From assembly GCF_900105765.1 (NCBI RefSeq), contig NZ_FNTX01000001.1, positions 186,001 through 250,000 of the forward strand: a stretch of DNA of 64,000 bases, given 5' to 3'. Under the pieces are notes generated by a model. That model was not told where the DNA came from. It saw only the letters and a list, made by a program, of their open reading frames with translations, and did no database searches. Position numbers and translations under genes: made by a program. Positions 33,777 to 52,745 of this stretch are shown piece after piece. This DNA is from Ruania alba (GTDB lineage Bacteria > Actinomycetota > Actinomycetes > Actinomycetales > Beutenbergiaceae). Position 1 is the first letter of the stretch. Each line of letters begins with the position of its first letter.

Positions 33777-33862
33777 GCGGGCTCCGATCGAGAAGGGGGA
33801 CGGCTCGAAGAAGGATAGTCAATCCCGGCCCTGGAGATTGCATGTCGTTCTGGGCTGCCGGG

Positions 33863-35008: not shown

Positions 35009-35054
35009 GTGCTCAGGGTACGGGCCCAGCGGCCGGACCTCGTAGAGTAGGCGG

Positions 35055-36173: not shown

Positions 36174-36200
36174 CTATGACGAGCCTTCGAGGAGCCTCAC

Positions 36201-36968: not shown

Positions 36969-37080
36969 CACGTCCACCCACGGGATGATGCCGAGGTGAG
37001 TCACCGGGGTGACCCGTCGGCGTCAGGTCGATCCTGGGGGCCGATGTGGCACCCGACGCCCCGGCGCGAGGATCGATCAC

Positions 37081-37242
37081 ATGACGACGATCGATGCTCG
37101 AGATGGAACCGACCCGCGCCCCGTGCGGGACTCCCTGCTGCCCGCTGCCTTGTCCCTGATCGCCGCGCTCGCGGTGCTCAGCGGCCTCGCGGCCGTCGCC
37201 GGCTTCGCGGTGCGCGCCGCGGTCGGTTTCTTCGCGGGCTAA
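37081..37242 (+). CDS. Small hypothetical single-TM protein (53 aa)
   Basis: A 53-residue product with a charged 15-residue N-terminus (MTTIDARDGTDPRPVRD) and one long hydrophobic segment of Ala/Leu/Val. A moderate ribosome binding site (GAGGATC) precedes the ATG. It lies between the LLM oxidoreductase and the convergent FAD-enzyme gene, with 16 bp to the latter's stop. I recognise no family; coding is likely from codon pattern and start context only. Confidence 0.45.
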   Translation: MTTIDARDGTDPRPVRDSLLPAALSLIAALAVLSGLAAVAGFAVRAAVGFFAG

Positions 37243-37258
37243 TTCGAGGTCGCTGTGA

Positions 37259-38635
37259 TCACGCCGAGGTGGCCGGTGGGACGTTCTGGTTGAGCCGGAA
37301 CACGTTGTCCGGGTCCCAGGTGGCCTTGACGGTCGCGAGCCGGTCCCAGGTCGTCTCCGGGTAGGCGGTGCGCACGCGATCGGGACCTTCGTCGGCGACG
37401 TGGTTCACCTCGACGGCGCTCGCCCAGGGGCGGAGCCGGTCCCAGCAGCGTTCGGCCCACTGCTGGTACGGACCCACGTCGTTCTCGCCCGGGGGCCAGG
37501 CACCGGCGATCTCGAGGTTGTAGGCAACATCCCGGTGTGCGAAGGCGGTGGCCGCGGGGTCGACCCTCGCCACGGCTCCGCCGAGCGGGAGTATCAGGAC
37601 ACTGCTCATCCCGGGCGGAAGGTCGTCGGTTTCGTGGACCAGCGTGGCCACGGCGTCATCGGGCAGATCCGCGAGCAGGTGTGCGCGCATGTGGAATCCG
37701 GCAGACCCGTTGAAGCCGTCGAAGAGGTGCTGGAGCTCGGCGAACGGCATCGGCCCCACGAGATCGGCCGCCGGTTCCGCAATCTGGCGCAGCGGCGCGA
37801 TCACCGAGTCGCCCTCGGTCAGGTCTCCGGTCCAGCAGATGGCCACCAGGACCGCGGGCGCGCCCTGCAGGTCGGCGGGGACGAACGGCGCCGGCGGGGC
37901 GGTGGTGAGAGCCGCCATGACGCTGAGTTGCTCCGAGGAGGCGTTCAGGTCCCGCAGCGTGACGAGCACGTCATGGACCCGGTCACGCGGGTAGACCAGC
38001 ATGCCGCCGTACACCGTCGGCAGCGGGTGGAGCTGAATGGTCACCGACGTCGCGATCCCGAAGTTCCCGCCGCCCCCGCGCAGGCCCCAGAACAGATCGG
38101 GGTTCTCGTCCTCGGCTGCCCGAACGACGCGACCGTCCGCGGTGACAACGGTGGAATCGAGCAGGTTGTCGCACGCCAGGCCGTACTCGCGGGCCAGCCA
38201 GCCGATCCCGCCTCCGAGCAGCAGTCCGCTCACTCCGACGCCCGAGACGTGGCCGCCGACCGGGGCGAGGCCGTGCTCGGCGGCGGCATCGGCGACCATG
38301 CCCCAGCGGACTCCCGGCCCGATCCGGGCGCACGGTGTCTGCGGATCGATCTCGATCTGGTCCATCCCACCGAGGTCGATGACGATGCCGTCGTGACAGG
38401 TGCCGTGACCGGCGAAGCTGTGCCCGCCGCCGCGTACGGCCAGGGGGACGTCGTGCTGTCGTGCGAGCGCGACGACCTCGCGCACGTCCTCGACCGAGCG
38501 GCAGCGCACCACTGCCCGCGGGTATCGATCCACGGCGGCGTTCCACACCCGCCGTGCCGCGTCGTACTCCGGGTCACCAGGGCGGACCACGGGCGGCGAC
38601 AGTGCGGCCAGGGCGTCGTCCAGGAGAGTTGACAT
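37259..38635 (-). CDS. FAD-linked (BBE-type) oxidoreductase
   Basis: A 458-residue berberine-bridge-enzyme-like flavoprotein. The FAD PCMH domain contains the covalent-attachment His region VRGGGHSFAGHGTCHDGIVI and the loop VGGHVSGVGVSGLLLGGGIG followed by WGLRGGGGNFGI. The C-terminal BBE motif is present as DRLATVKATWDPDNVFRLNQN. Such enzymes oxidise sugars, alkaloids or other alcohols with oxygen. GAGGAGG precedes the ATG. No clear partner gene; the substrate cannot be predicted. It is on the minus strand and convergent with a small membrane-protein gene. Confidence 0.88.
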   Translation of the reverse strand: MSTLLDDALAALSPPVVRPGDPEYDAARRVWNAAVDRYPRAVVRCRSVEDVREVVALARQHDVPLAVRGGGHSFAGHGTCHDGIVIDLGGMDQIEIDPQTPCARIGPGVRWGMVADAAAEHGLAPVGGHVSGVGVSGLLLGGGIGWLAREYGLACDNLLDSTVVTADGRVVRAAEDENPDLFWGLRGGGGNFGIATSVTIQLHPLPTVYGGMLVYPRDRVHDVLVTLRDLNASSEQLSVMAALTTAPPAPFVPADLQGAPAVLVAICWTGDLTEGDSVIAPLRQIAEPAADLVGPMPFAELQHLFDGFNGSAGFHMRAHLLADLPDDAVATLVHETDDLPPGMSSVLILPLGGAVARVDPAATAFAHRDVAYNLEIAGAWPPGENDVGPYQQWAERCWDRLRPWASAVEVNHVADEGPDRVRTAYPETTWDRLATVKATWDPDNVFRLNQNVPPATSA

Positions 38636-38738
38636 GAGCGAACCTCCTCGAACCTCACTGCCAGGCTACTCCGGTGGTACCTGAAGCCAAGGGCCTGGGG
38701 AGTGGCGTGGCCCCACTCGCGTCGGCGACTGACGACCT

Positions 38739-39500
38739 CTAGATGAGGACGCTGGCGATGCGGAGGTCGACACTGCACACGGGGCATGTCGCATTGCCGA
38801 ACAGGTAGCGGAACTGGTCGGCGACACGCTGTCGGTCATTCTGGGTGGCGAGATCGAGAAGCCGTGCTTCGGTCCCAGCAACATTCGCTGTGGGTTTGAC
38901 CGGCGTCGATCCTTCGCTCACGTCCTGACGAGTGACCGTGGCTGGAAGATCGTCGATGTGCAGGACCAGAGCCGCAGCGCACCCAGCGCATTCCATCGGC
39001 GCTTCACCGTCCGCAAGATAGCTGAGGTTTCTTGACCAAGGACCGCCATCCTCGAATGACGTCAAGGTCTCGAGGCCGTAGATGAACTCGAGGTCAGTTC
39101 CTGCGAGTTCAATGCCCCGTTCTGCGATCGCGTGCAACTGTGCGACTTCTGCCCCGTATCGCCGGCGCACCGCGGCTGGCTCCTCCGGCCCATCGATGGA
39201 GGCAAGGATGGCGCCCGCGAGTTGGAGCGGGGCGGAATAGCCGCGAGGGTCCTGGCTCAGACACATAGCCGTCAGGATCGGCAGGGCAGCGTAGCTCGCG
39301 CTGTACACGGTGCCCTGGTGACAGAGGGCGGTCCAGAGGTCATCCCAGCAGTCGTCGAAGGCTGTGCCCGACGCCGCCGCACGGCGGAGCATCGCGGGGA
39401 CCATCTCGGCGCTGCCGTACCCGCACCGAAGTGAGGCCCAGTCGTCCTCCGTCTTGCCGCGTGCGAAGCCCACGTCGAGACGGTACCTGTCAGGAATCAT
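38739..39500 (-). CDS. Hypothetical protein with C-terminal CxxC pairs
   Basis: A ~253-residue protein I cannot name. An N-terminal region with YRLDVGFARGKTEDDWASL is followed by LWTALCHQGTVYSASYAALPILTAM and by alpha-helical repeats (APLQLAGAILASIDG) resembling HEAT-like proteins of actinobacteria that carry the same HQGTVYxASYAA block. Two Cys pairs near the end (ECAGC and TCPVC) could bind zinc. ATG at 39500 is a choice; a TTG at 39614 would add 38 residues and overlap the upstream gene. It follows the next listed gene on the same strand. The paired small genes here look accessory. Confidence 0.55.
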   Translation of the reverse strand: MIPDRYRLDVGFARGKTEDDWASLRCGYGSAEMVPAMLRRAAASGTAFDDCWDDLWTALCHQGTVYSASYAALPILTAMCLSQDPRGYSAPLQLAGAILASIDGPEEPAAVRRRYGAEVAQLHAIAERGIELAGTDLEFIYGLETLTSFEDGGPWSRNLSYLADGEAPMECAGCAAALVLHIDDLPATVTRQDVSEGSTPVKPTANVAGTEARLLDLATQNDRQRVADQFRYLFGNATCPVCSVDLRIASVLI

Positions 39501-39588
39501 CGCGGCACGCCAGTATCCGGGTAGGCCCTTGGAGCGCACCGCCGGTTCACCGTCGCAGCCCGGCCCTACGGCGGCCCGTCCTAGTGGC

Positions 39589-39930
39589 TCATCGAAACTC
39601 ACGGACGACTTCAATCAGGCCGACGATGTGCCGGTTGAACTCGTCAAGGTCTTCCGCGGGGATCCAGTACTCCAGGATCGTCTGCCCTCCAGCTTGCTGG
39701 ACGTCGTACTGGTCGAGGAAGGCTCTCTCGACCTCGAAGCGCGTCACGTAGCCCACGCCGCTTGCCTTGACGTTCCAGTCGCGGGCGATCCGAACGGCGT
39801 ACTCCTCGCTGAGAACGGGGTAGAAGATCGGCTGCTCGGGCAGCCGTGCCGGCCACGCACGCCATCCGGAGGCCGCCACCAGGTCGAGCTCGTCCGGACC
39901 TGTCGGACGCCAGAGTGTGACGGTTTCCAT
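39589..39930 (-). CDS. Small protein of the 'ADP-ribosylation/crystallin J1' annotated type
   Basis: A 113-residue cytosolic protein with a well-conserved pattern seen in many bacteria: LWRPTGPDELDLVAASGW, RLPEQPIFYPVLSEEYA, ARDWNVKASGVGYVTRFEV, and EYWIPAEDLDEFNRHIVG at the end. These are commonly annotated 'ADP-ribosylation/crystallin J1' but no catalytic activity is known to me. ATG start at 39930. It precedes the hypothetical CxxC-protein gene and probably shares its transcript. The region looks less GC-rich in its codons than the flanking men genes. Confidence 0.65.
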   Translation of the reverse strand: METVTLWRPTGPDELDLVAASGWRAWPARLPEQPIFYPVLSEEYAVRIARDWNVKASGVGYVTRFEVERAFLDQYDVQQAGGQTILEYWIPAEDLDEFNRHIVGLIEVVREFR

Positions 39931-39985
39931 CCACGCAACCTAGCTCACGCACGTTCTCCACGCCGTGGAGCGGCGGCATCTGCTC

Positions 39986-40017
39986 GCCGTCAACGCGCGT
40001 GGCGAGTTCCTGACGGC
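39986..40017. terminator. Hairpin downstream of menB
   Basis: A 7-bp perfect stem GCCGTCA (39986-39992) with TGACGGC (40011-40017), seven bases beyond the menB stop. Weak but well placed as a terminator; no U-tract. Confidence 0.4.
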
Positions 40018-40023
40018 TCGGGA

Positions 40024-40983
<960 letters not shown>

Positions 40984-41234
40984 TGTAGTCAGCAGAGCGG
41001 CCGAAGCCCCATCGGCTCACCGGCCACTGTCCATGCCGCAGTGGGATACTTCGCCTCGTTTCTGTCTGGCCATGGCGGCACCTATCGACCTGCTTTCGCC
41101 GATGCCGAATCGACGTTGTACTTCCCCGACGAACGGAGTGCACTCTCGCTAGCGGTCGGAGCCGGACATGCGACTCGCAACCAATGACCTGGAGCGCATG
41201 CCGTGCCACGAGTTCGACAGAGAGAGACAACGCA

Positions 41235-42536
41235 ATGAAGCGAACCTGGATAACCTTTGGCGCGCCGGCACTCGCTGGTGCGCTCGCCCTGACAGCGTGC
41301 AGCAGCGATGCCGAGAGCAGTGGCGGCACGGAGAACGAAGCCGTCGAGGAGATCACGCTCTCGGCGTGGAGCGTCAGCATCACACCGGAGTTCAATGCGC
41401 TGATCGACGCCTACAATGCGCAGAACCCGGACACCCCGGTCGCGATCCAAGAGTACAACGCGACGGAGTACAGCACGCAGATCATTGCGGACCTGGCTGC
41501 TGATTCAGCCCCGCACCTCATCACCCTCAAGAGCCTCAACGATCTCATCACGCTGCACGAGGGTGACCAGCTCCTGGACGTGTCCGACATCGCCGCGGAG
41601 AACGATCCGCCGATCGTCGGCCTGGACACCTATACGATCGATGACGTCACGTACGCGATTCCGTTCCGTCAGGACGCCTGGTACCTGTTCTACAACAAGG
41701 ACCTGTTCGACGCTGCCGGGATCGAGTACCCGGACGGGTCGTGGACGTGGGACGACTACGCCGCCGCTGCCGAGGAGTTGACCGAGGCGTTGGACGCCGC
41801 CGGATCCGACGCCTACGGCACCTTCCAGCAGCACTGGGGCGACCTCGTCCTGGCGTTCGCGAACACCCAGGATCCGGAGGCGGACGTGCTTTCCGGTGAG
41901 TGGGAGTACCTGGTGCCCTGGTACGAGCGAACGCTTGCGCTGCAAGACGCGGGAGCGCAAGTCACGTACGGATCGATCACTACCAACTCAACCGACTACA
42001 AGGCTGTCTTCGGCACGCAACAGACGGCGATGATGCCGATGGGGTCGTGGTACGTGGGCGTGCTGCTGGCTCAGCAGGAGAGTGGTGACGCGGATGACTT
42101 CGCGTGGGGTTTCGCGCCCGCTCCTCAGCCCAATGCATCCACTATCGAATCGCCCGTCTCGCCGGGATCGCCGACCGGGATCGGAATCAACTCGGGGGTA
42201 TCCGGCCCGGAGCTGGACGCAGCACGAGACTTCCTGGCGTTTGTCGCCAGCGAGGAAGCGGGCGTCGCTGTGGCCGAGGTGGGGATCTCCCCTGCATATG
42301 GCAGCGAGGCAGTCACCGACGCGTACTTCTCGGTGAGTGAAATGCCGTCGGACGACCTGTCCAGTTTCGCCTTCGCGGAGAGTGCGCCCCGCTTGGGATT
42401 CCCCGTCGATGAGCTCACTCCGTCCCTGCAGAACATCCTGAACGATGCTCACTCGGCGATCCTCGCCGGGACGGTCTCCCCGGCCGACGGCATCGCCGAG
42501 GCGATGGAGCGGGCGCAGTCCGAGGTGCTCGGCTAA
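41235..42536 (+). CDS. ABC transporter sugar-type solute-binding lipoprotein
   Basis: A 433-residue extracytoplasmic binding protein of the MalE/UgpB type (family 1). The lipoprotein signal ends ALALTAC with lipid Cys 22. Seen: ITLSAWSVSITPEFNALID, YAIPFRQDAWYLFYNKDLFD, DGSWTWDDYAAAAEEL, and a C-terminal helix that ends EAMERAQSEVLG. First gene of the import operon with two permeases. No ATPase gene is in the cluster, so it must borrow a shared MsmK/MalK-type ATPase. The ligand cannot be told; family members bind oligosaccharides or glycerol phosphate. The downstream enzymes hint at a glycoside or aromatic conjugate. Confidence 0.92.
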   Translation: MKRTWITFGAPALAGALALTACSSDAESSGGTENEAVEEITLSAWSVSITPEFNALIDAYNAQNPDTPVAIQEYNATEYSTQIIADLAADSAPHLITLKSLNDLITLHEGDQLLDVSDIAAENDPPIVGLDTYTIDDVTYAIPFRQDAWYLFYNKDLFDAAGIEYPDGSWTWDDYAAAAEELTEALDAAGSDAYGTFQQHWGDLVLAFANTQDPEADVLSGEWEYLVPWYERTLALQDAGAQVTYGSITTNSTDYKAVFGTQQTAMMPMGSWYVGVLLAQQESGDADDFAWGFAPAPQPNASTIESPVSPGSPTGIGINSGVSGPELDAARDFLAFVASEEAGVAVAEVGISPAYGSEAVTDAYFSVSEMPSDDLSSFAFAESAPRLGFPVDELTPSLQNILNDAHSAILAGTVSPADGIAEAMERAQSEVLG

Positions 42537-42608
42537 CCCCACCCACTCTCGCACCGGCCGGCCGCGCACCGCGGCCGGCCGGTGCCCCTTGAATCGACGA
42601 GGAGAACC

Positions 42609-43544
42609 ATGGCGACGACGGCTGTGGACGCCTCCGCTGCACCGACGCCACCACGGCGCCGGGCCCGCAGCAGCAGGCTCACGCTTCGCAACACCTTCAT
42701 CGGGTGGACCTTCATCCTGCCCAACTTCATCGGCTTCGCGGTGCTCACGCTCGTGCCGGTGCTCATCCTGTTCTACCTCGCCTTCACGTCCTGGAACGCG
42801 TTCGGGCAGGCGGACTGGATCGGCTTGGAGAACTTCGAGCGGCTGCTCACCGACGGCACGTTCCACACCGCGCTGGCCAACACCGCCTACTACGCGCTGA
42901 TGCACATCCCCCTCACGCTGGCGGCCTCGCTCGGTCTGGCACTGCTGCTGAACCACAAGATGCGTGGGATCGCGTTCTTCCGCACCGTGGCGTTCTTCCC
43001 CTACATCACCTCGATCGTGGCGATCGCGGTGGTCTGGAACATGCTGTTCTCCCCCGATTCGGGTCCGATCAACCAGTTCCTGATGGCGGTGGGGATCGAC
43101 AACCCGCCCGGATGGACCACCTCGGCCAGCTGGTCGATGCCCTCGATCGTGCTGGTGAGCGTGTGGCGCGAGATGGGCTACTACATGCTGCTGTTCCTGG
43201 CTGGGCTGCAGGCCATCCCGCGCGAGCTCTACGAGGCCGCCCGGGTGGACGGTGCGCACGCGGTCCAGCGGTTCTGGAACGTGACCGTGCCGAGCCTACG
43301 ACCCACCACGTTCTTCGTGACTGTGATCCTGACGATCCAGAGCTTCAAGATCCTCGACCTGATCCTGGTGATGACCGACGGCGGCCCCGGCACCTCAACC
43401 CTGGTCCTCGCCCAGTACATCTACCGCAAGGGCTTCGAGGAGAACGACTTCGGCTACGCCTCCGCCGTGGCGGTGGTGCTGTTCTTCATCTGCCTCGCCC
43501 TCACGGTGGTGCAGTTCCTGCTGAACAAGAGGAGGGAGGTCTGA
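42609..43544 (+). CDS. ABC sugar permease, MalF/UgpA type
   Basis: A 311-residue inner-membrane permease with six helices. Helix 1 is FIGWTFILPNFIGFAVLTLV; the EAA-loop that contacts the ATPase is visible as ELYEAARVDGAHAVQRFWN, followed by TVPSLRPTTFFV. ATG at 42609 with GAGGAG before it. TGATG junction with the next permease. Forms a heterodimer with it and receives substrate from the binding protein 5' of it. Confidence 0.93.
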   Translation: MATTAVDASAAPTPPRRRARSSRLTLRNTFIGWTFILPNFIGFAVLTLVPVLILFYLAFTSWNAFGQADWIGLENFERLLTDGTFHTALANTAYYALMHIPLTLAASLGLALLLNHKMRGIAFFRTVAFFPYITSIVAIAVVWNMLFSPDSGPINQFLMAVGIDNPPGWTTSASWSMPSIVLVSVWREMGYYMLLFLAGLQAIPRELYEAARVDGAHAVQRFWNVTVPSLRPTTFFVTVILTIQSFKILDLILVMTDGGPGTSTLVLAQYIYRKGFEENDFGYASAVAVVLFFICLALTVVQFLLNKRREV

Positions 43545-44431
43545 TGGCCACCGTCACCCTCGATCGCCCCAGCACGGCCACTCCCCAGCTGCGCAAGGAC
43601 CCCAAGGCGGGCCGCAGGCTCGTCGCCCGGGTGCTGCTGTACGTGGCGCTGATCGTCGCAGCGGCTGCGATCATGCTGCCGTTCTTCTGGATGGTGACCT
43701 CCTCGCTGAAGATGAACAACCAGGTCTTCTCCGTCCCGATCCAGTGGCTGCCCGACCCGGTGGTCTGGCGCAACTACCTCGACATCTGGGCCAAGGCCGA
43801 CATGCTGAACTGGGTCAAGAACACCCTGATCCTGTCGGTCTCGGTGACCTTCCTGCAGGTCCTCACCGGCAGCTTCGCCGCCTACGGCTTCTCCAAGATG
43901 CGCTTCCCCGGCCGGGACGTGCTGTTCCTGACCTACGTGGCCACCATCGCGGTGCCGTGGCAGGCGTACATGATCCCGCAGTTCATCATGCTCTCCAAGG
44001 CCGGACTGTCGAACACGTTGTGGTCGATCCTCGCGCTGCAGACGTTCAGTGCGTTCGGGGTCTTCCTGATGAAGCAGTACTACGAGTCCATCCCGGAGGA
44101 GCTCTCCGAGGCGGCCCGGATCGACGGGCTCTCGGAGTACTCGATCTGGCGCAAGATCGTGCTGCCGCTCTCCGGCCCGGCCGTGGCCACGCTGACGCTG
44201 CTCACGTTCGTCAACACCTGGAACGATTACCTCGGCCCGCTGATCTACCTGCGCGACCGGGACATCTGGACCATCCAGATCGGGCTGAAGTCCTTCGTGT
44301 CCCAGTACAACGCCGAATATGCGCTGATCATGACCGGCTCAGTCATCTCGGTGCTGCCGATCGCGCTGATCTTCATGCTCGGGCAGCGCTACTTCGTCCA
44401 AGGAATCGCCACCGCGGGGCTCAAGGGCTGA
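43544..44431 (+). CDS. ABC sugar permease, MalG/UgpE type
   Basis: A 295-residue permease with six helices: LLYVALIVAAAAIMLPFFWMV first, and the EAA-loop EELSEAARIDGLSEYSIWR in the second half followed by KIVLPLSGPAVAT. ATG overlaps the stop of the MalF-type gene (TGATG), so synthesis is coupled. AGGAGGGAGG provides a strong ribosome binding site. Together with its partner it forms the channel of the importer. Confidence 0.93.
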   Translation: MATVTLDRPSTATPQLRKDPKAGRRLVARVLLYVALIVAAAAIMLPFFWMVTSSLKMNNQVFSVPIQWLPDPVVWRNYLDIWAKADMLNWVKNTLILSVSVTFLQVLTGSFAAYGFSKMRFPGRDVLFLTYVATIAVPWQAYMIPQFIMLSKAGLSNTLWSILALQTFSAFGVFLMKQYYESIPEELSEAARIDGLSEYSIWRKIVLPLSGPAVATLTLLTFVNTWNDYLGPLIYLRDRDIWTIQIGLKSFVSQYNAEYALIMTGSVISVLPIALIFMLGQRYFVQGIATAGLKG

Positions 44432-44433
44432 CG

Positions 44434-45180
44434 ATGGTGACCATGGTGGGCACGGAACGGGGCCAGCGGCCGGAGCGGCGACGCTTGCGGATGCCCTCGG
44501 CCCAAACCTGGGAAACAGTGATCGGCATCGGGTACCTGGTGCTCGGCACCAACGCGATGTTGCTGGTCGGCGCCCTGCCACTGGTGGTGCTGCTGGTCAG
44601 CACCGATCCGGTCACGTCCTGGCCGGCGCTGCTGGGTGCGGGTGTGCTCGCCACACCCGCACTCACCGCCGGTTTCGCGGTCTTCACCCACTACTCCCGC
44701 ACGCATGGCACCGAGGTGATCCGCACCTTCTGGCGCTCCTGGGCGGCGCACCTGCGCCGCTCACTCGCCGTCGGACTCCTATGGACCACGACGGCGGTGA
44801 TCCTGGTGGTGGACGTGCTCGCCCTGTGGGGCGCCACCCTGGGCGCCGTCCTCACCCCTGTCTTCGTGGTGCTGTTCCTGCTCGCCACCGCGACGGCGTT
44901 GCTCGCCCTGGTGGCGAGCGTCGAGCGCCCGGACGCCCGGCTCCGGGACGTCCTACGGGCCTCGCTCTACCTGGGCCTACGACGCTGGTACCTGACCGCG
45001 GTGTCCTTCCTGGTGCTGGGCCTACTCGCGGGACTCTTCGTGATCCACCCGGCCCTCGCCGTCGGGCTGGCCGCGACCCCGCTGCTCTATGCGGTGTGGG
45101 GGAACTCCCGCTACACACTCAAACCGGTACTGCCCCAGGGATCCGCGATCCGCTTCTCAGGTCTTCCCGGACGGAACTGA
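44434..45180 (+). CDS. YesL/DUF624-like membrane protein
   Basis: A 248-residue membrane protein with six hydrophobic segments (TVIGIGYLVLGTNAMLLVGA, LPLVVLLVS, ALLGAGVLATPALTAGFAVF, and more). The pattern and the place directly behind MalFG-type permease genes match the DUF624/YesL family, which accompanies carbohydrate ABC importers and is thought to aid them or sense their state. An HYSRTHGTEVIRTFWRSW block between helices is typical. ATG at 44434 is two bases after the permease stop; a second ATG at 44443 is possible. Confidence 0.72.
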   Translation: MVTMVGTERGQRPERRRLRMPSAQTWETVIGIGYLVLGTNAMLLVGALPLVVLLVSTDPVTSWPALLGAGVLATPALTAGFAVFTHYSRTHGTEVIRTFWRSWAAHLRRSLAVGLLWTTTAVILVVDVLALWGATLGAVLTPVFVVLFLLATATALLALVASVERPDARLRDVLRASLYLGLRRWYLTAVSFLVLGLLAGLFVIHPALAVGLAATPLLYAVWGNSRYTLKPVLPQGSAIRFSGLPGRN

Positions 45181-45192
45181 ATGCGAGTGCCG

Positions 45193-45210
45193 ATGCCGAG
45201 GATTCGGCAT
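45193..45210. promoter_or_regulatory. 18-bp palindrome before the IclR-type gene
   Basis: Perfect 7-bp arms ATGCCGA (45193-45199) and TCGGCAT (45204-45210) with a 4-bp spacer, 51 bp before the regulator start. IclR-type proteins bind such palindromes, often autoregulating. A matching half-site CGATGCCGA occurs at 41100-41108, in the promoter region of the ABC operon. Inference. Confidence 0.45.
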
Positions 45211-45260
45211 GGCCGATGGCGGCCTTGGCATTGCGGGACCGCGTCCCTACCGTCGTCGGT

Positions 45261-46130
45261 GTGAGCACTCGTAAGGCTAGCGTCGGCGTCCAGTCGGTCC
45301 ATCGTGCGCTCGACGTGCTGGAGGTCGTCACGCGGTCGGGTCCACTCGGCGTCACTCAGATCGGCCAACTGGTCGGCCTACCGCCCTCGACCGCACATGG
45401 ACTGATTCACACCCTCACGATGCGTAACTATCTGGTGCGGGTTCGCGGCGGATACGCCCTCGGCCCGGCCGCCATCGGCTCGGGCAGCTGGCACGATCAC
45501 GCAGCCAAGCTCGTCGCCCACGTCGATCCCATTCTCGTCTCCTTGAGTGCACGTGCACAACTCGCGTCGACGGCGACGGTCCTGGTCGGACGCGAGGCAC
45601 GCATCGTGGCGTCGACGCCCAGCCCGGGAGTACTGGGAATGCGGGTTGAGCACGACGTCTGGAAGGACCCGCTCAAACTTGCTACGGGGTGGGTCCTGGT
45701 GGCCTTCGGCGACCGCAAGCACTGGGGGGACTACATCGCCCGCACCGACCTCTCGCCGCGGCTCTATCCCTCCTGGCGGCAGGTGTTCGCACAGATCCGC
45801 GAACACGGACTGGCACTCAATCCCACACGCGATCCTCGGTCCGCCGTCAGTATCGCGATGCCCGTGCGCGCCCGCAATGGCGAGGTCCTGTGCTCGCTGG
45901 GTCTCTTCACACCCGCCTACCTCGCTGCAGACGTGATGAACCCTGCGGCCCTGGACATGCTCTATGAGGCGTGCAGCGAGGCGTCGCAGGCGTTCGGGGG
46001 CGAGGTCAACCGCCCCGCACCACCCGACTTTGCAGCGCTTCGGCGCCACCTGCCGGACAACCTTCTGCACAGCGACCACCTGTCGCGGCACCGGGACAGT
46101 ACAGATGAAGGAGATTTAGATGAGCAGTAG
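45261..46130 (+). CDS. IclR family transcriptional regulator
   Basis: A 289-residue IclR-type regulator. The N-terminal winged HTH is VGVQSVHRALDVLEVVTRSG, LGVTQIGQLVGLPPSTAHGL, followed by VRVRGGYALGPAAIGSG; the C-terminal GAF-like effector domain contains ASTATVLVGREARIVAST and RSAVSIAMPVRARNGEVLCSL. IclR regulators commonly control degradation of aromatic acids or sugars. GTG at 45261 starts just before the HTH. Its 3' end overlaps the amidohydrolase gene by 11 bases, so it is part of the operon it presumably regulates. Confidence 0.88.
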   Translation: MSTRKASVGVQSVHRALDVLEVVTRSGPLGVTQIGQLVGLPPSTAHGLIHTLTMRNYLVRVRGGYALGPAAIGSGSWHDHAAKLVAHVDPILVSLSARAQLASTATVLVGREARIVASTPSPGVLGMRVEHDVWKDPLKLATGWVLVAFGDRKHWGDYIARTDLSPRLYPSWRQVFAQIREHGLALNPTRDPRSAVSIAMPVRARNGEVLCSLGLFTPAYLAADVMNPAALDMLYEACSEASQAFGGEVNRPAPPDFAALRRHLPDNLLHSDHLSRHRDSTDEGDLDEQ

Positions 46131-47277
46131 AGCGACCACAGGGAGCGCCGGAGTCGTCATCGACGGCGATGTGCACAACGCACTTCCCGATCTCGACCGG
46201 TTCATCCCGGCAGTCTGGGCCGGGGGATGGCGCACAGCTTCGGTGCCGACCAGCCACAACTACGCGAATCCGCGTGGTGGAGTCGCCCGGAAGGATGTCA
46301 CCCCGCCGAACGGCGGTGCGCCGGCGAGTGACCCGTACTTCCTGATCTCCGATCACCTGGATCCGTATGGGATCGACTACGCAATCCTCACCGGGCCCCA
46401 CCTGATCCACCTGGGCACGGATCTGGATTACCAGAACATGATGGCCAGGGCGATGAACGAATGCACCGCCGCCACCTGGCTGACCATCTCGGACCGGTTC
46501 CGCGGCTCGATCCTGGTGAACCTCGATGACCCGCACGCGGCGGCCCGTGAGATCAGACACTGGGCGAGCGACAAACGCTTCGTCCAGGTCATCGCAGCTG
46601 CCGCCACGCGGCGTCCGATCGGCCAACGGGAGTTCTGGCCGATCTTCGAGGCCTGCAGCGAGACCGGCCTACCGCTGGCCGTCCACCCCGGCACCGAGGG
46701 TGCCGGCACCGCTTTCCCGCCCACGCCCATGGGGTGGCCTTCCCGGTACATGGAGTGGCACAACATCCTCCCGATCGGCTACATGGCGCAGATCAACTCA
46801 CTGGTCACCGAGGGCGCCTTCGAGCACTTCCCCTCGTTGCGGTTCATCGCGATCGAGGGCGGGACGGCATGGCTCCCGCACCTGATGTGGCGGATGAACA
46901 AGAACTACAAGGCGCTGCGGGACACCACCCCGTGGCTGACGCGCCTGCCGTCGGAGTACATCCTCGACCATGTTCGCCTGACCACCCAGCCGATCGAAGA
47001 GCCCAGGCGTCCCGAAGAACTCACGCAGATCCTCGCCATGATCGAGGCCGAACGCACGCTGATGTTCTCCTCGGATTACCCCCACTGGGACTACGACAAC
47101 GCCAACCTCATCCTCACCGCGATCGATTCCTCGACGCGTGCACGCATCATGGGGGAGACCGCCGCCGAGCTCTACGGGATCATCCGGATGCCGCTGCCGG
47201 AGGATCTCCCGGCGCACCTGCCGGCAACGGACGAGCCGGTCGAGCAGCCGATGACCGAAGCGGTCCCCGTCGAATGA
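46120..47277 (+). CDS. Amidohydrolase-2 family metal-dependent hydrolase/decarboxylase
   Basis: A 385-residue TIM-barrel enzyme of the amidohydrolase_2 (PF04909-type) group, which includes ACMSD, gamma-resorcylate decarboxylase and lactone hydrolases. Metal-ligand motifs: VIDGDVHNALPDLDRF (D-x-H) at the N-terminus, GLPLAVHPGTEGAG in mid-barrel, and MFSSDYPHWDYDNANL near the end. GAAGGAG ribosome binding site. It overlaps the next gene by ATGA, so it is co-produced with the Rieske-reductase fusion. A decarboxylation or C-C hydrolysis step on an aromatic-derived acid is the likely chemistry; the exact substrate is unknown. Confidence 0.85.
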   Translation: MSSRATTGSAGVVIDGDVHNALPDLDRFIPAVWAGGWRTASVPTSHNYANPRGGVARKDVTPPNGGAPASDPYFLISDHLDPYGIDYAILTGPHLIHLGTDLDYQNMMARAMNECTAATWLTISDRFRGSILVNLDDPHAAAREIRHWASDKRFVQVIAAAATRRPIGQREFWPIFEACSETGLPLAVHPGTEGAGTAFPPTPMGWPSRYMEWHNILPIGYMAQINSLVTEGAFEHFPSLRFIAIEGGTAWLPHLMWRMNKNYKALRDTTPWLTRLPSEYILDHVRLTTQPIEEPRRPEELTQILAMIEAERTLMFSSDYPHWDYDNANLILTAIDSSTRARIMGETAAELYGIIRMPLPEDLPAHLPATDEPVEQPMTEAVPVE

Positions 47278-48635
47278 CCATCGCGACACCCGCCACGAAC
47301 CAGCTCATCCCGGATCATCCGGTCGGTCCCGAGACGGCGGAGATTGCCCGCGTCGAGGACGTCCCTCCCGCAGGTCACGGCGCATTGCGCTGTGACGTGA
47401 ACGGCACACCGATCGGCCTGTATCGCGTCGCGGACGAGATCCGAGCCTGGCGCAATGTATGCCCGCACGAAGCTGCCCCGGTCTGCCGTGGACCGGTCAC
47501 GGGCACCCGACTGCAGTCCGCCGTGTACGAGTACACCTACGGCCGCGATCGCGAGGTGTTGCGCTGCCCCTGGCACGGCTGGGAGTTCGACCTAGCCACC
47601 GGCGACCACCTCGCCGAAGGGTCCGGCGCCAAGCTCCGCTCCCACCCCATCCACGTTCAGGACGGTCGTATCTACGACGCCTCCAACCGCGGTCTGATGC
47701 ATAAGCGTGATCTCGTCGTCGCTGAGGTGGACCGGGTCGGGCACGTTCTCGTCCTCGACCTGAGCGCCGCGGACGGGGGCAGCCTGCCGGCATGGTCCCC
47801 GGGCGCCCATATCGAGCTCGCGCTTCCTTCCGGCCGGGTGCGTCACTATTCTCTGTGCGGCAATCCGCGGGAGAAGTACCGGTACCGCATCGCTGTGCTC
47901 GCCGAAGCGGGCGGACGCGGCGGCTCGCGCGAGTTGCACGAGATTGCCACGCGCGGCGCGTGCCTGCGGATGAAGGCGCTGCGGAACAGGTTTCCGCTGC
48001 GGTACGCCCCGCACTACCTGTTCATTGCCGGTGGCATCGGGATCACGGCCATCCTGCCGATGATCACGATGGTCGCCCGGCGTGGTGGTTCCTACCAGGC
48101 CGTCTACATCGGCCGAGACCAGGCGGGGATGCCGTTCGGCTCGGAGCTCGCAGCAGTCCCGGCTGTGACGATGATCGGCACGAGCGTGGCCGGCCGCCCC
48201 GAGATCGCGGCGCTCGTGGCCGATCTGCCCGCGCACACCGCCATCTACTGCTGTGGCCCGGAGTCGCTGACGTCCGCGGTACGTGCCGCCGTCGCCGCGA
48301 CCAGTCGTGACCTCCCGGTGCACACCGAACGGTTCACGAGCACGCCCGTATCGAACAGCTCGGAGTCTGACCGTCCCTTCGAGGTCACCCTCGCCCGCAC
48401 CGGGCGCACCCTGCAGGTGCCCGCTGATGACACGCTCCTGAACACCCTTCGACGGCATGGCATCGCGCGGGACTCCTCCTGTGAGCAGGGGTGGTGCGGT
48501 AGTTGTGAGACAACCGTGGTCAGCGGTACTCCGATCCACCGTGACTCCATCCTGGATGCCGACGAGCACGATGACGCCGGCACCATGATGATCTGCACCA
48601 GTCGCGCCACCGGAACCGTCGTCCTCGACGCCTAG
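47274..48635 (+). CDS. Rieske - flavin/NAD reductase - [2Fe-2S] ferredoxin fusion protein
   Basis: A 453-residue three-module electron-transfer protein. (1) Residues ~20-135: a Rieske domain with C63-P-H65 and C98-P-W-H101; the 32-residue spacer between the ligand pairs is about twice the classical 15-17. (2) ~142-350: a phthalate-dioxygenase-reductase-like module with RHYSLCG (flavin) and FIAGGIGITAILPM (NADH), ending YCCGPESLTSAV. (3) ~368-453: plant-type ferredoxin with C-x4-C-x2-C-x29-C (CEQGWCGSC ... MMIC). Modules 2-3 are the normal PDR/VanB layout; the N-terminal Rieske addition is unusual. No oxygenase catalytic subunit is encoded nearby. ATGA overlap with the amidohydrolase gene. Confidence 0.9.
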   Translation: MTIATPATNQLIPDHPVGPETAEIARVEDVPPAGHGALRCDVNGTPIGLYRVADEIRAWRNVCPHEAAPVCRGPVTGTRLQSAVYEYTYGRDREVLRCPWHGWEFDLATGDHLAEGSGAKLRSHPIHVQDGRIYDASNRGLMHKRDLVVAEVDRVGHVLVLDLSAADGGSLPAWSPGAHIELALPSGRVRHYSLCGNPREKYRYRIAVLAEAGGRGGSRELHEIATRGACLRMKALRNRFPLRYAPHYLFIAGGIGITAILPMITMVARRGGSYQAVYIGRDQAGMPFGSELAAVPAVTMIGTSVAGRPEIAALVADLPAHTAIYCCGPESLTSAVRAAVAATSRDLPVHTERFTSTPVSNSSESDRPFEVTLARTGRTLQVPADDTLLNTLRRHGIARDSSCEQGWCGSCETTVVSGTPIHRDSILDADEHDDAGTMMICTSRATGTVVLDA

Positions 48636-48723
48636 CGACGCCACGGATCGCCGGCTCGGCACCGGCCATGCTGGCGTGGTCCGGTTCGGATCGTGCCGGA
48701 TCAGCCGCCAGGTCAGGCGGCGG

Positions 48724-49263
48724 TCAGGCGGCTGGGCAGCTGAGGTCGAGCAGTTGTGCGGCGAGGGCGGCCGGATCGCCGCCCTCGCTCAACGCCGTGA
48801 TCGCTGCACCGTCGATCACCGCGACCACGAGAGCGGCGTCGAGGCCGAGCGGGCCGGCGATCTGCGTGAGGGCCGCGTCCACCCGGGGTCGTCCCGCGGC
48901 ATAGGCGGCGGCAACCTGCTGGCTGCGGCCGGCTCCGGCGAGGTGTTCGTAGTGCCCGCGCACCCGCTCCGGTTCGGGGAGCACCGCGGCGACGGCGGCG
49001 CTGATCCGCTGCGATCGGCTCGCCCGGGGGTCGAGCTCGGCCGCCACGCGCTCTGCGTGGTCCGCCCAGCCGCGCACGATGCGTTCGCCGGCCGCGCCGA
49101 GCAGTTCCTCGAGCGAGGAGAAGTAGTAGGTGGTGGCCGAGAGCGAGCACCCGGCACGGGCGGCCACCTCTCGGTGCGTGCAGGTGCCGGGGCCCCGCTC
49201 CAGCAACAGGTCCGCCGCAGCGGTGATCACCGAGTCCCGCCTGCGCGCCCCCTTCGAAGGCAT
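48724..49263 (-). CDS. TetR family transcriptional regulator
   Basis: A 179-residue repressor: MPSKGARRRDSVITAAADLL, LERGPGTCTHREVAARAGCS and LSATTYYFSSLEELLGAAGE form the HTH; the rest is the helical ligand domain. Its ATG overlaps the stop of the SMR exporter gene (TGATG), so the two form an operon with autoregulation likely through palindromes upstream of the exporter. The stop codon lies within a tandem 11-bp repeat (GGTCAGGCGGC twice, 48711-48732). Confidence 0.88.
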   Translation of the reverse strand: MPSKGARRRDSVITAAADLLLERGPGTCTHREVAARAGCSLSATTYYFSSLEELLGAAGERIVRGWADHAERVAAELDPRASRSQRISAAVAAVLPEPERVRGHYEHLAGAGRSQQVAAAYAAGRPRVDAALTQIAGPLGLDAALVVAVIDGAAITALSEGGDPAALAAQLLDLSCPAA

Positions 49264-49586
49264 CAGTGCTCCGAACCGGCCAAGTTCAGGCCGACCACAC
49301 CCGCGACGATCAGCACCAGCGAGACGATCTTGATCACGCTGACACCCTCGCTCAGCCAGACCATCCCGACCACCGCCGTCAGGCTCGCGCCGATCCCGAC
49401 CCAGACCGCGTAGGCGGTGCCGACCGGGAGGCTGCGCAGTGCGTAGGCGAGCCCGGCCATGCTCGCCGCGAGCGAGACGCCGAATACCACCGACGGCCAC
49501 AGTCTTGTGAACCCTTCCGATGCCTTCAGGCTCGTCGCCCATACGGTCTCCAGCATCCCGGACACGATCAAGATGACCCACGCCAT
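49263..49586 (-). CDS. sugE: Small multidrug resistance protein, SugE/Gdx-like
   Basis: A 107-residue four-helix exporter of the SMR family. The essential Glu is at residue 13 in SGMLETVWATSLKASEGFTR, a wording closer to SugE/Gdx guanidinium exporters (LK.S.GFTRL.PS) than to EmrE. GTAYAVWVGIGASLTAVVGM is the second signature. ATG at 49586 is placed seven bases after AAGGAGG; a GTG one codon upstream is too close. Exports small cations such as guanidinium in exchange for protons; quaternary amines are possible. Operon with TetR; no guanidine riboswitch seen. Confidence 0.85.
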   Translation of the reverse strand: MAWVILIVSGMLETVWATSLKASEGFTRLWPSVVFGVSLAASMAGLAYALRSLPVGTAYAVWVGIGASLTAVVGMVWLSEGVSVIKIVSLVLIVAGVVGLNLAGSEH

Positions 49587-49602
49587 CACGCCACCTCCTT
49601 AT

Positions 49603-49648
49603 TTCTAGTACAAAAGTACCAGAATATAGAACTGGTTGCCCAACCGGT
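49603..49648. promoter_or_regulatory. Two palindromes in the SMR-menC intergenic region
   Basis: Arms TTCTAGTAC (49603-49611) and GTACCAGAA (49616-49624), one mismatch, AAAA spacer; and arms ACTGGTTG (49631-49638) and CAACCGGT (49641-49648), one mismatch. They lie 17-62 bp upstream of the SMR ATG and are the likely operators for the TetR protein encoded in that operon. They are also within 40-85 bp of the menC start. Confidence 0.5.
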
Positions 49649-49686
49649 CCTGCACGCGGGTGGTTCGGGGGCCGTATCCTTGCCGA

Positions 49687-50625
49687 GTGAGGACGGCGTG
49701 CTACTCGATCGGGCTCCGCACCCGGTTCCGCGGCCTGGACCGCCGGGACGGCATGCTGATCCAGGGGGAGGCCGGCTGGGGCGAGTTCTCCCCGTTCTGG
49801 GAGTACGGCCTCGCGGAGTCCCGCGCCTGGTGGGCGGCCGCCCACGAAGCCGCCACGCTGCCCTTCCCCGACCCGGTGCGCGAGAGCATCCCGGTGAACG
49901 TCACCGTCCCGGCCACCACCCCCGAACGGGCGCACGCTATCGTCATCGCCGGCGGCGGCTGCCGCACCGCCAAGGTGAAGGTCGCCGAACCGGGCCAGAC
50001 CCTCGCCGAGGAGCAGGCCCGCCTCGAAGCCGTCCGGGACGCGCTCGGCGCGAGCGGGGCGATCCGGATCGATGCCAATGCCGCCTGGGACCTGGACGAG
50101 GCACGCCGCCGGCTGCCGATCCTGGACCGCGCCGCTGGCGGCCTGGAGTATGCCGAGCAACCCTGCGCGGCCGTGGCCGACCTGGCCGCGCTGCGCCGTC
50201 GCCTCAGCCTGCCCATCGCCGCGGACGAGTCGATCCGCCGCGCCGAGGACCCGTATGCCGTGGCCCGCGCCGAGGCGGCCGACGTGGTGGTGCTCAAGGT
50301 GCAGCCGCTCGGCGGGGTGCGCGCGGCACTGCGGATCGCCGAGCAGATCGGACTGCCTGCAGTGGTCTCCTCGGCCCTGGAGACCTCCGTCGGGATCGCG
50401 GCCGGGGTGGCGCTCGCAGCGGCCCTCCCAGAGCTTCCCTACGCCTGCGGCCTGGCCACGGTGCACCTCTTCGACCGGGACGTCACCGACGACCCGCTGC
50501 TCCCCTCCGGTGGTGAGCTTCCGGTACGCAGGGCGGCACCTACGCCCGCGCTGCTGGCGGCAGCAGCTGCCGACGAGACGCTGACTGCCCGGTGGCAGGA
50601 ACGCCTGGCTGCCTGCCGTGACTGA
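49687..50625 (+). CDS. menC: o-Succinylbenzoate synthase
   Basis: A 312-residue enolase-superfamily enzyme that dehydrates SHCHC to o-succinylbenzoate in menaquinone synthesis. Catalytic Lys pair in TAKVKVAE, metal ligands Asp in RIDANAAWDL, Glu in LEYAEQPCA, Asp in IAADESIRR, and the second catalytic Lys in VVVLKVQPLGG. GTG at 49687 chosen because VRTACYSIGLRTRFRG begins the capping domain. It overlaps the next gene by eight bases. menD follows after that, completing a menC-GNAT-menD unit. Confidence 0.94.
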   Translation: MRTACYSIGLRTRFRGLDRRDGMLIQGEAGWGEFSPFWEYGLAESRAWWAAAHEAATLPFPDPVRESIPVNVTVPATTPERAHAIVIAGGGCRTAKVKVAEPGQTLAEEQARLEAVRDALGASGAIRIDANAAWDLDEARRRLPILDRAAGGLEYAEQPCAAVADLAALRRRLSLPIAADESIRRAEDPYAVARAEAADVVVLKVQPLGGVRAALRIAEQIGLPAVVSSALETSVGIAAGVALAAALPELPYACGLATVHLFDRDVTDDPLLPSGGELPVRRAAPTPALLAAAAADETLTARWQERLAACRD

Positions 50626-51091
50626 CCGGGGAGCCCAGGTGCGGGCGCCGCGCGCCGACGACTTGCCCGCCCTCGCCGACCTGAAGATCGCCTGGTCTGC
50701 GCCCGAACGAACGGTCTCCCTCTCGGAGCGCACCCATTTCATTGCCTCACTGGCGCGGTGGATGGCTGATCGCGAGGACCGGCTCGTCTGTCGGGTGGCC
50801 GAGGTGGACGGCACGCTGGTCGGGATGGCTTGGCTGGTGCTCGACGAACGCGTACCGAATGTCGACGACGCGCACCGCATGACGGGTGATGTGCAGAGCG
50901 TCTTCGTCCTCGCCGAGCACCGGGGCCATGGCATCGGCACCATGCTGGTGCGGTCGTTGTGCGAGGCGGCTGACGCCGTCGGCGCGCGACTGTCGGTGCG
51001 GGCGAACGACGCGTCGGTGCCGCTCTACCGGAGCGCTGGCTTCGTGGCGGCTGGGGCGCTGCTGGAACGCCGGCCCGGGGCAGCGCCGTGA
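50618..51091 (+). CDS. GNAT family N-acetyltransferase
   Basis: A 157-residue acetyltransferase. Seen: VRAPRADDLPALADLKIAW, the acetyl-CoA loop VFVLAEHRGHGIGTMLVRSL and LSVRANDASVPLYRSAGF, the usual GNAT motif order. Acceptor unknown. GTG start inside the menC 3' end (8-base overlap); menD begins 13 bp after it, so it sits within the men operon although no acetylation step is needed in menaquinone synthesis. May be a passenger or modify a small molecule or protein N-terminus. Confidence 0.82.
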   Translation: MTDRGAQVRAPRADDLPALADLKIAWSAPERTVSLSERTHFIASLARWMADREDRLVCRVAEVDGTLVGMAWLVLDERVPNVDDAHRMTGDVQSVFVLAEHRGHGIGTMLVRSLCEAADAVGARLSVRANDASVPLYRSAGFVAAGALLERRPGAAP

Positions 51092-51104
51092 CAAGATCGC
51101 GAGC

Positions 51105-52745
51105 ATGACCAATCCCTCCACCCTCCGCGCCCGCGCCGTAGTGACCGCGCTGGTGGCCGCCGGGATTCGCGACGTGGTGCTGGCACCGGGGTCGCGCAGC
51201 GCACCGCTTGCCTACGCCCTGCACGCCGCTGAGGACGCCGGCTGGCTCCGAGTGCACGTCCGCGTCGACGAACGATCCGCGGGCTTCGTCGCGCTCGGCA
51301 TCGCCCGGGTGCGCCCGGCGGCCGTGGTCACCACCTCGGGCACGGCCGTGGCCAACCTGCACCCCGCGGTGCTCGAGGCGAGCCACTCCGGGGCGCCGCT
51401 GATGATCGTCAGCGCCGACCGGCCGCACGAGTTGCGCGGTGTGGGTGCGAACCAGACGACCGACCAGGTGAAGGTGTTCGCCACGGCGGTGCGTAGCTTC
51501 ACCGAGCTGCCCGCTGACGACGCCGATCCGATGCGCGGGGTGCGCAGCGCCGTCACCCGGGCCGTGGCCGCCGCCACCGGCGCCCGCACCCGTGCCCCGG
51601 GGCCGGTACATCTGAACGTCGCCTTCCGGGACCCGCTCACCCCCGACGACGGCCCTTGGGCCGGTGAGGTCCCTGCACCGGTGCAGGTGGTCGCCACCGG
51701 ACCAGTGGAGCCTGTGGTGCTGCCGCGTGGTCCGCGCACCGTGGTCGTGGCCGGTGACGGGGCTCACCGCGCTGGACCCGTCCAGGAGGTGGGCTCTTGG
51801 GGCTGGCCGGTTCTCGCCGAGCCGTCCTCCGGCCTGCGGGGGGCCGCCACCGCTGTGGCGGCCGGCCGGGTGATCGCCGACGAGCTCGCCCGCGAGATCG
51901 AGCGGGTGGTGGTGCTCGGCCGGCCCACGCTGAGCCGGCCGATCACCCGGCTGCTCGCCCGGGACGACCTGGACGTGGTGGTGGTGTCAGGCAGGGCCGA
52001 CTGGGCCGACGTGGCCGGCACCGCACGCGTGGTCGCCGACGCCATCGCCGTGCCCGGCGATCTCGGGGCGGGCGAGCGGGACTGGCTGCACCGGTGGCAG
52101 CTGGCCTCGGCCGCCGCGATCACCGCACTGGACAGGCCGCGCCCTCTCGACGGACCGACGGTGGCCCACGCCGTGCTCGGGGCCGGCGGGACCGTGCTGC
52201 TCGGCTCCTCGATGGCAGTACGCGACGCCGACCTCGCGGCACCGGCCGGTCCGGCGTTCGCAGCGGCCCAGGTGCTCGCCAACCGTGGCCTGGCCGGCAT
52301 CGACGGCACCATCTCCACCGCCACCGGTGTGGCCCTGACCGGTACACCGGTGCGAGCCCTGATCGGGGATATCACCTTCCTGCACGACGTCGGCGGCCTC
52401 GCCCGCGGGAGGTTCGAGCGCGAGGTGGACCTGCAGGTGATTGTGCTCAACGACGACGGGGGATCCATCTTCGCCACGCTCGAGCACGGGAAGGAGGAGC
52501 ACGCCGAGACCTTCGGCCGGTTCTTCGCCACCCCGCAGAGTGTGGACCTGGCCGCGCTCGCGGCCGGCTTCGGCGCCCGGCACCAGGAGGTCCGCACCGT
52601 CAGCGAGCTGATGGACGCGCTCGACCAGGGCATCCATGGACGCAGCGTGATCGAGGTGCGCCTGGATCCCGCCGGTGCACACGAACGCGCCGAGAGGCTC
52701 ACCGGCTCGGTACGCCAGGCCGTCCGGAGTGCGCTGGGCAGCTGA
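51105..52745 (+). CDS. menD: SEPHCHC synthase (menaquinone synthesis)
   Basis: A 546-residue thiamine diphosphate enzyme joining isochorismate and 2-oxoglutarate. Seen: VVLAPGSRSAPLAYALH, VRVDERSAGFVALGIAR with the ThDP-activating Glu, VTTSGTAVANLHPAVLEASH, SADRPHELRGVGANQT, and the C-terminal ThDP/Mg site LIGDITFLHDVGGL with VIVLNDDGGSIF. ATG at 51105, 13 bp after the GNAT gene. Consumes the product of MenF, encoded 2 kb further on. Confidence 0.96.
   Translation: MTNPSTLRARAVVTALVAAGIRDVVLAPGSRSAPLAYALHAAEDAGWLRVHVRVDERSAGFVALGIARVRPAAVVTTSGTAVANLHPAVLEASHSGAPLMIVSADRPHELRGVGANQTTDQVKVFATAVRSFTELPADDADPMRGVRSAVTRAVAAATGARTRAPGPVHLNVAFRDPLTPDDGPWAGEVPAPVQVVATGPVEPVVLPRGPRTVVVAGDGAHRAGPVQEVGSWGWPVLAEPSSGLRGAATAVAAGRVIADELAREIERVVVLGRPTLSRPITRLLARDDLDVVVVSGRADWADVAGTARVVADAIAVPGDLGAGERDWLHRWQLASAAAITALDRPRPLDGPTVAHAVLGAGGTVLLGSSMAVRDADLAAPAGPAFAAAQVLANRGLAGIDGTISTATGVALTGTPVRALIGDITFLHDVGGLARGRFEREVDLQVIVLNDDGGSIFATLEHGKEEHAETFGRFFATPQSVDLAALAAGFGARHQEVRTVSELMDALDQGIHGRSVIEVRLDPAGAHERAERLTGSVRQAVRSALGS

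Follow-up and report, generated by a model that had tools for sequence, protein, structure and literature searches.

The aminoisobutyrate (Aib) monooxygenase of Rhodococcus wratislaviensis, AibH1H2GF, is a dimetal oxygenase of the amidohydrolase fold, fed by a Rieske ferredoxin and a flavin mononucleotide (FMN)/NADH reductase that are encoded next to it. Hydroxylation of Aib depends on each of AibH1, AibH2, AibG (the Rieske protein) and AibF, the last being an FMN protein with a preference for NADH (PMC7782822). The class name 'amidohydrolase-related dinuclear oxygenases' (AROs) has been given to such enzymes, and the structures 8SM6–8SM9 are reported as members ('TruffO' in PDB titles; PMC10811679). 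In NdmD, the caffeine demethylase reductase, one chain combines a Rieske domain, an FMN/NADH module and, at its C-terminus, a plant-type [2Fe-2S] ferredoxin (PMC4408171, PMC12445004). This article examines a gene pair in a 64,000-nucleotide stretch of the Ruania alba genome (contig NZ_FNTX01000001.1, positions 186,001 to 250,000; 'the window'), in which a fusion of Rieske, reductase and ferredoxin modules is encoded directly behind an ARO-like gene. With a probability of roughly 85%, the fusion is a one-chain electron donor for this adjacent ARO, which would hydroxylate a small solute imported by the ATP-binding cassette (ABC) importer of the same operon. This reading is built on the module architecture, on the conservation of the ligands, on how the genes are ordered and overlap, on co-occurrence and phylogeny, and on the lack of any other candidate Rieske oxygenase in the genome.

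46120..47277, + strand: predicted ARO, 385 amino acids (aa), ligands D17, H19, H189, E246, D319 and H322 plus D324 (PF04909, ligands, structure matches)
47274..48635, + strand: fusion of Rieske, FMN/NADH reductase and plant-type ferredoxin modules, 453 aa, predicted to donate electrons to the ARO, with a homologue in a second genome (G020)
47340..47684, + strand: Rieske module, about residues 23–137, ligands C63, H65, C98 and H101 (Pfam PF00355)
47700..48335, + strand: FMN/NADH module, about residues 143–354, PDR/VanB type, FMN by homology only (phmmer, Foldseek)
48384..48632, + strand: plant-type [2Fe-2S] ferredoxin module, about residues 371–453, C403, C408, C411 and C441 (Pfam PF00111)

The pair is neither a three-component system of the AibH1H2GF type nor a member of the NdmD systems. 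In R. wratislaviensis, ferredoxin and reductase are separate proteins, whereas here they form one chain, equivalent to AibG plus AibF; the oxygenase there has two unlike amidohydrolase subunits, with AibH1 as the partner, while a single ARO-like gene is present here. NdmD, whose sequence was compared through its ferredoxin domain only (6ICM), serves the Rieske oxygenases NdmA, NdmB and NdmC, and an NdmE-like glutathione-S-transferase partner is needed with NdmC (PMC4408171, PMC12445004). No such oxygenase was found here, and the partner would instead be an ARO.

The gene at 46120–47277, hydrolase-like by annotation, very probably encodes this oxygenase partner. Its product matches the amidohydrolase TIM barrel of Pfam (PF04909) at 2.2e-33, and its nine best solved relatives all belong to the ARO family, namely 8SM7, SfbO (8SM6), 8SM8, 8SM9 and the AibH1H2 chains; PtmU3 and then decarboxylases rank after these, both by sequence and by fold (Foldseek). 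Identity amounts to 45.6% over 338 positions with 8SM7 (E 1.9e-95) and to 40.1% over 344 positions with SfbO 8SM6 (E 5.5e-74). The structural model, with a predicted local distance difference test score (pLDDT) of 88.4, matches 8SM7 in Foldseek with a TM score of 0.95, normalised by target length. D17, H19, H189, E246, D319 and H322 align directly with the corresponding columns of SfbO and 8SM7, and were matched by motif and spacing only to the AibH2 ligands D25, H27, H211, E265, D337 and H340. AibH2 also has a second-sphere acidic residue, D342, reportedly retained in binuclear members alone (PMC7782822); its counterpart is present here as D324, so that six ligands and the second-sphere Asp are common to the two proteins. 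An ordinary amidohydrolase was rejected for this gene on account of the ARO ligand set and the best-matching structures.

As with SfbO, 8SM7 and other AROs (PMC10811679), a Rieske gene adjoins. The start codon of the fusion gene overlaps the stop codon of the ARO gene (4 bp, ATGA), and the Rieske protein alongside this ARO is thus encoded, in one chain with its reductase, by the second gene of this overlapping pair. There are also differences from SfbO, whose anion-binding Arg pair is missing: R232 is replaced by H214 and R235 by L217, with His/Leu in 8SM7 too (four of the five residues of the SfbO anion site could be placed, and Y280 aligned with Asp in the HMMER alignment). A sulfonate-like substrate is therefore less likely. 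The original prediction, made from the letters of the DNA, had described the fusion as lacking an oxygenase partner; given the ARO matches and six ligands next door, this was most likely wrong. Its statement that no oxygenase alpha subunit is encoded in the cluster holds for the Rieske-oxygenase type only, as an oxygenase of another fold is probably present at 46120–47277. Its proposal of a self-contained relay from NADH to an acceptor, serving the neighbouring amidohydrolase gene, agrees well with a neighbour that is a probable ARO.

The fusion protein occupies one uninterrupted frame on the + strand, from ATG at 47274 to TAG at 48635. It contains the Rieske motifs C63-x-H65 and C98-x2-H101, RHYSLCG at 190, GGIGIT at 253 and the ferredoxin cysteines C403-x4-C408-x2-C411-x29-C441. 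Pfam places Rieske (23–113, 2.8e-12) and Fer2 (372–446, 7.9e-13) above their cut-offs, and finds the flavin/NADH part through NAD_binding_6 alone, weakly, at 23.0 bits against a cut-off of 22.2. By phmmer (2PIA; 6LAA, 1.2e-59; 6KBH) and Foldseek (2PIA, E 1.0e-29; also 6LAA), the second half is like phthalate dioxygenase reductase. The reductase plus plant-type ferredoxin half is what the fusion shares with 2PIA and with the self-sufficient P450s (CYP116B46 6LAA; 6KBH); the latter have a fused P450 heme domain, 2PIA has nothing fused, and the Rieske module is missing from all three. Motifs, Pfam and Foldseek agree with the single 453-residue chain of Rieske site, flavin/NADH module and plant-type ferredoxin that had been read from the sequence, and the ferredoxin spacing is exact. 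The Rieske ligands are kept in all 34 alignment rows that cover them, a further 33 being gapped there, and the ferredoxin cysteines 403, 408, 411 and 441 in 34/34 covering rows; the RxYS motif lies in a misaligned stretch of the alignment (A1) and was left out of the conservation count. The G+C content at third codon positions is nearly equal in the Rieske (0.813) and reductase (0.825) parts of the gene.

A second fusion of 436 aa (L110:9724-11034) is encoded in G020, the genome of a different genus within the family. It is 54% identical to the first over 428 positions, without a frame break, and has Rieske and Fer2 above cut-off with NAD_binding_1 between them; the ARO preceding it is 72% identical to that of the window and has the same ATGA overlap. 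Because the same architecture recurs in another genus, the fusion is neither a chance product nor two genes merged by a sequencing error, an option that the original prediction had kept in view and that was rejected here.

The fusion is rare in the genomes searched, whether relatives, order or class. Counting the window's own genome, a full-length fusion occurs in 2/59 relatives (E ≤ 1e-20) and in 2/396 genomes of the order (E ≤ 1e-40); for 394 genomes of the class (E ≤ 1e-60), the window's genome is the sole full-length row among the matches listed. Four candidates were scored per genome in the order and class scans, and the three samples overlap. In 79 loci gathered by redox-protein similarity, no open frame of 120 aa or more combines a Rieske with a Fer2 motif, and in three Kribbella loci (L002, L003, L009) the two halves are neighbouring but separate frames. 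Of 689 plasmid records that match the fusion protein, one (H14, P450/oxidoreductase) covers at least 80% of it at one place; among 25 of the 689 listed, no match begins before residue 80. Of the suggestion that the architecture might be both common and already characterised, the second part stands, in that NdmD has the module set (PMC4408171); as to the first, the fusion is rare in the genomes searched here.

The loci were gathered with the redox protein as query, not the amidohydrolase; the set comprises the best 80 (79 distinct) of at least 585 confirmed matches, plus L110, giving 80 loci. Amidohydrolase frames are present in 79 of these (91 frames in total, E ≤ 1e-10). All six ligands are found in 78/91 ARO-like frames, and in 76 of these 78 the position of D324 is also acidic (Asp or Glu). 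Among the 13 that fall short, eight are gapped at ligand columns (cut or partly aligned) and five have a changed ligand, three of these being AibH1-like Kribbella partners. A six-ligand ARO is present in 73/80 loci, and in 62/80 the Rieske gene and a six-ligand frame share a strand and are no more than 300 bp apart. Recurring neighbours include parts of ABC importers and some regulator-like frames; the open reading frame (ORF) clusters that hold the window's two permease frames span 43 and 42 of 81 sources, the neighbour clusters being judged by eye and some being antisense frames. The three Kribbella loci have two amidohydrolase genes, one with six ligands and one AibH1-like with Gln at the third ligand place, together with split Rieske and reductase genes. 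Four loci from Pseudomonadota (L006, L007, L008, L015) combine a Rieske protein, a PDR-type reductase and a remote amidohydrolase (27–29% identity) whose first metal motif is unaligned; these are perhaps a separate branch.

The two fused-type AROs are sisters (support 100/99) in a tree of 44 rows (42 of the 71 in alignment A2, plus 8SM7 and SfbO), and are joined next by an ARO from Desertihabitans (L013; 100/99). The three fall within a 22-row clade otherwise made up of Paenibacillus and Verrucomicrobiota, whereas 8SM7 belongs to a different Paenibacillus clade. The Rieske tree, of 36 rows, again places the fused pair (100/98) nearest to L013, with moderate support (88/82), and the nearest relatives of the module are mostly ARO-linked stand-alone Rieske proteins. 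The Rieske frame of L013 stops 55 residues past the last ligand, and no reductase match was found within the fetched flanks of that locus. Midpoint rooting was used for drawing only. Because both trees place the fused pair beside a stand-alone version, the fusion looks derived, and would most simply have arisen once from a stand-alone ferredoxin. The two fused rows also pair as sisters (99/95) in the reductase tree (35 domains), without a settled place among PDR/VanB reductases; recruitment of the reductase half from an ARO-linked reductase finds no support there. The published ARO survey found members through small Rieske proteins under 250 aa (PMC10811679), and could not see the fusion because of this limit.

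For the metals, the electron path, the O2 chemistry and the hydroxylation of an imported solute, we infer the following scheme. Hydride from NADH would pass to the FMN of the fusion, from which single electrons would reach the plant-type [2Fe-2S] cluster, then the Rieske cluster and finally the dimetal site of the ARO. The latter would be a TIM-barrel dimetal (Mn/Fe or Fe2) monooxygenase whose site, formed by D17, H19, H189, E246, D319 and H322, would bind O2 and hydroxylate a C–H bond of a small solute, taken up through the ABC importer that the operon also encodes. Near the G020 copy (L110:3619-8732, L110:14418-15737) lie genes for a xylose-isomerase-like TIM barrel, an Asp/Glu racemase, a metallo-beta-lactamase-fold protein and a Gfo/Idh/MocA dehydrogenase, which hint, without proof, at a sugar- or cyclitol-like substrate.

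In the window, the ARO and fusion genes close a row on one strand, presumably one transcript of seven genes, which also holds an ABC solute-binding protein, two permeases, a DUF624 protein and an IclR-type regulator:

41184..42536, + strand: ABC solute-binding protein (PF01547)
42582..43544, + strand: ABC permease 1 (PF00528)
43544..44431, + strand: ABC permease 2 (PF00528)
44470..45180, + strand: DUF624 membrane protein (PF04854)
45186..46130, + strand: IclR-type regulator, start codon putative (PF09339, PF01614)
40989..48763, no strand: accessory cassette between menB and TetR/SMR/menC/menD, not found at this site in 5/5 same-genus genomes with both flanks
32907-33776, - strand: menA, part of a scattered menaquinone locus (32907-52745)
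33863-35434, - strand: menE-like, below the curated cut-off for menE
40024-40983, - strand: menB (NCBIfam PRK08321)
49636-50625, + strand: menC, menaquinone locus
51099-52745, + strand: menD, menaquinone locus

The IclR gene (45186-46130) overlaps the ARO start by 11 bp inside the row; in G020 an IclR gene lies downstream on the opposite strand. The stretch 40989–48763 is an accessory unit, either acquired or retained in a patchy way. Six of the seven other genomes of the genus were fetched, and both flanks were found in five (L126-L129, L131), the sixth (L130) being cut by a contig end; in all five, none of the seven cassette genes was matched between the flanks (E ≤ 1e-15). There, menB and menC-menD adjoin, with TetR and SMR between them in three. 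G+C content is 66.1% in the cassette versus 69.5% in the rest of the window, and the lowest-GC 7.56-kb stretch of the window begins at 41000 (steps of 500). No repeats were found at the cassette ends (search of 40900-48800), and promoter and terminator scans gave site counts about equal to those of shuffles. Outside the cassette, 37259-38635 encodes a berberine-bridge-type FAD oxidase (PF01565, PF08031), a distant relative of BagK/FevA1 below cut-off, and a minus-strand ORF of 291 aa (38739-39614) matched no Pfam family. Taken as a whole, it is likely that the pair represents a two-component ARO system, with the ferredoxin and NADH reductase of a Mn/Fe-type monooxygenase in one chain, that has a single origin in one (probably actinobacterial) family, moves as an accessory cassette and is invisible to the published survey of Rieske proteins below 250 residues.

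In principle, the fusion could serve a distant oxygenase, either a Rieske oxygenase or the sole P450, with the amidohydrolase as an ordinary hydrolase or decarboxylase. Its reductase half also closely resembles the corresponding part of a self-sufficient P450 (6LAA), the P450 heme motif occurs in the same frame in 4/35 rows of the reductase tree, and the genome does encode one cytochrome P450. Directly upstream of that gene, however, is a frame for a ferredoxin reductase of the FAD (pyridine-nucleotide-disulphide) type, with Reductase_C exactly at cut-off; the two presumably work together, and the P450 was rejected as partner of the fusion on this ground. A Rieske oxygenase elsewhere in the genome was likewise rejected. 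The R. alba genome (G000) has four Rieske domains above cut-off, the fusion included; none of the other three, in ORFs of 118, 136 and 367 aa, has the appearance of an oxygenase. From a reading of the ORFs rather than a family search, L081 would be a suf-linked ferredoxin, L082 a lipoprotein-like Rieske protein and L084 a QcrA of the cytochrome bc type. The catalytic domains of Rieske oxygenases, PF00848 and PF19112, were found in neither fusion-bearing genome (0 in G000, 0 in G020), while each was detected in 4/14 control genomes; the orphan subunit for which the original prediction had advised a genome-wide search did not appear. With a single ARO-like gene in the genome (E ≤ 0.001), ATGA coupling of fusion and ARO in both genomes and a dinuclear ligand set kept in the ARO, a distant partner, as once proposed, is very unlikely.

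Still less credible is an oxygenase-independent redox enzyme, such as a diaphorase or a reductase acting on the amidohydrolase product, which had also been suggested. Isolated PDR-type modules do show diaphorase activity (AibF; PMC7782822), but the linkage of Rieske proteins to AROs over several phyla would be hard to explain without electron delivery, and the adjacent amidohydrolase is very probably an ARO oxygenase. A third alternative concerns the role alone and shares the mechanism: the oxygenase system might act in biosynthesis or detoxification rather than in breaking down an imported solute. One member of the superfamily, PtmU3, has a role in diterpenoid biosynthesis (PMC7782822), and the pair is accompanied only by transporter, DUF624 and regulator genes, with no later catabolic enzyme in the cassette. 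Against this stand the importer genes of the row (one for an ABC solute-binding protein, two for permeases) and the recurrence of permease clusters in about half of the sources; such a role is rather unlikely.

Several points weigh against a one-chain donor for an ARO that acts on an imported solute. The operon of the pair has no gene for a later catabolic step. The sample of loci is enriched for close kin, and even so seven of the 80 (L006, L007, L008, L015, L046, L047, L076) are without a six-ligand frame, L047 having Rieske genes but no amidohydrolase match. A full reductase frame is nearby in only 9/79 loci (L038 has a partial one at a contig end), and a linked reductase is therefore not essential to the family. 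With the Arg pair of SfbO replaced, its test substrates may not apply, and the authors who described SfbO and related enzymes did not infer what these act on in nature (PMC10811679). In the AlphaFold model of the fusion, the modules are confident (mean pLDDT 87.6), whereas a predicted template-modelling score (pTM) of 0.65 leaves their relative placement loose.

Both ingredients of the pair are already known, namely the module set in one chain from NdmD and a Rieske-fed ARO from AibH1H2GF; a fused donor for an ARO was not found in the open-access literature among the matches listed. AROs are a large and hardly characterised class of dimetal oxygenases, for which the papers cited here show a native electron chain for AibH1H2 only, SfbO having been assayed with ascorbate (PMC7782822, PMC10811679). 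The fused donor is a defined relay that can be expressed together with its oxygenase from two overlapping genes; with it, assays could be driven by NADH and the proposed sequence of electron transfer put directly to the test. More generally, the case shows how an oxygenase hidden behind a hydrolase annotation can be recognised as the partner of an 'orphan' Rieske reductase.

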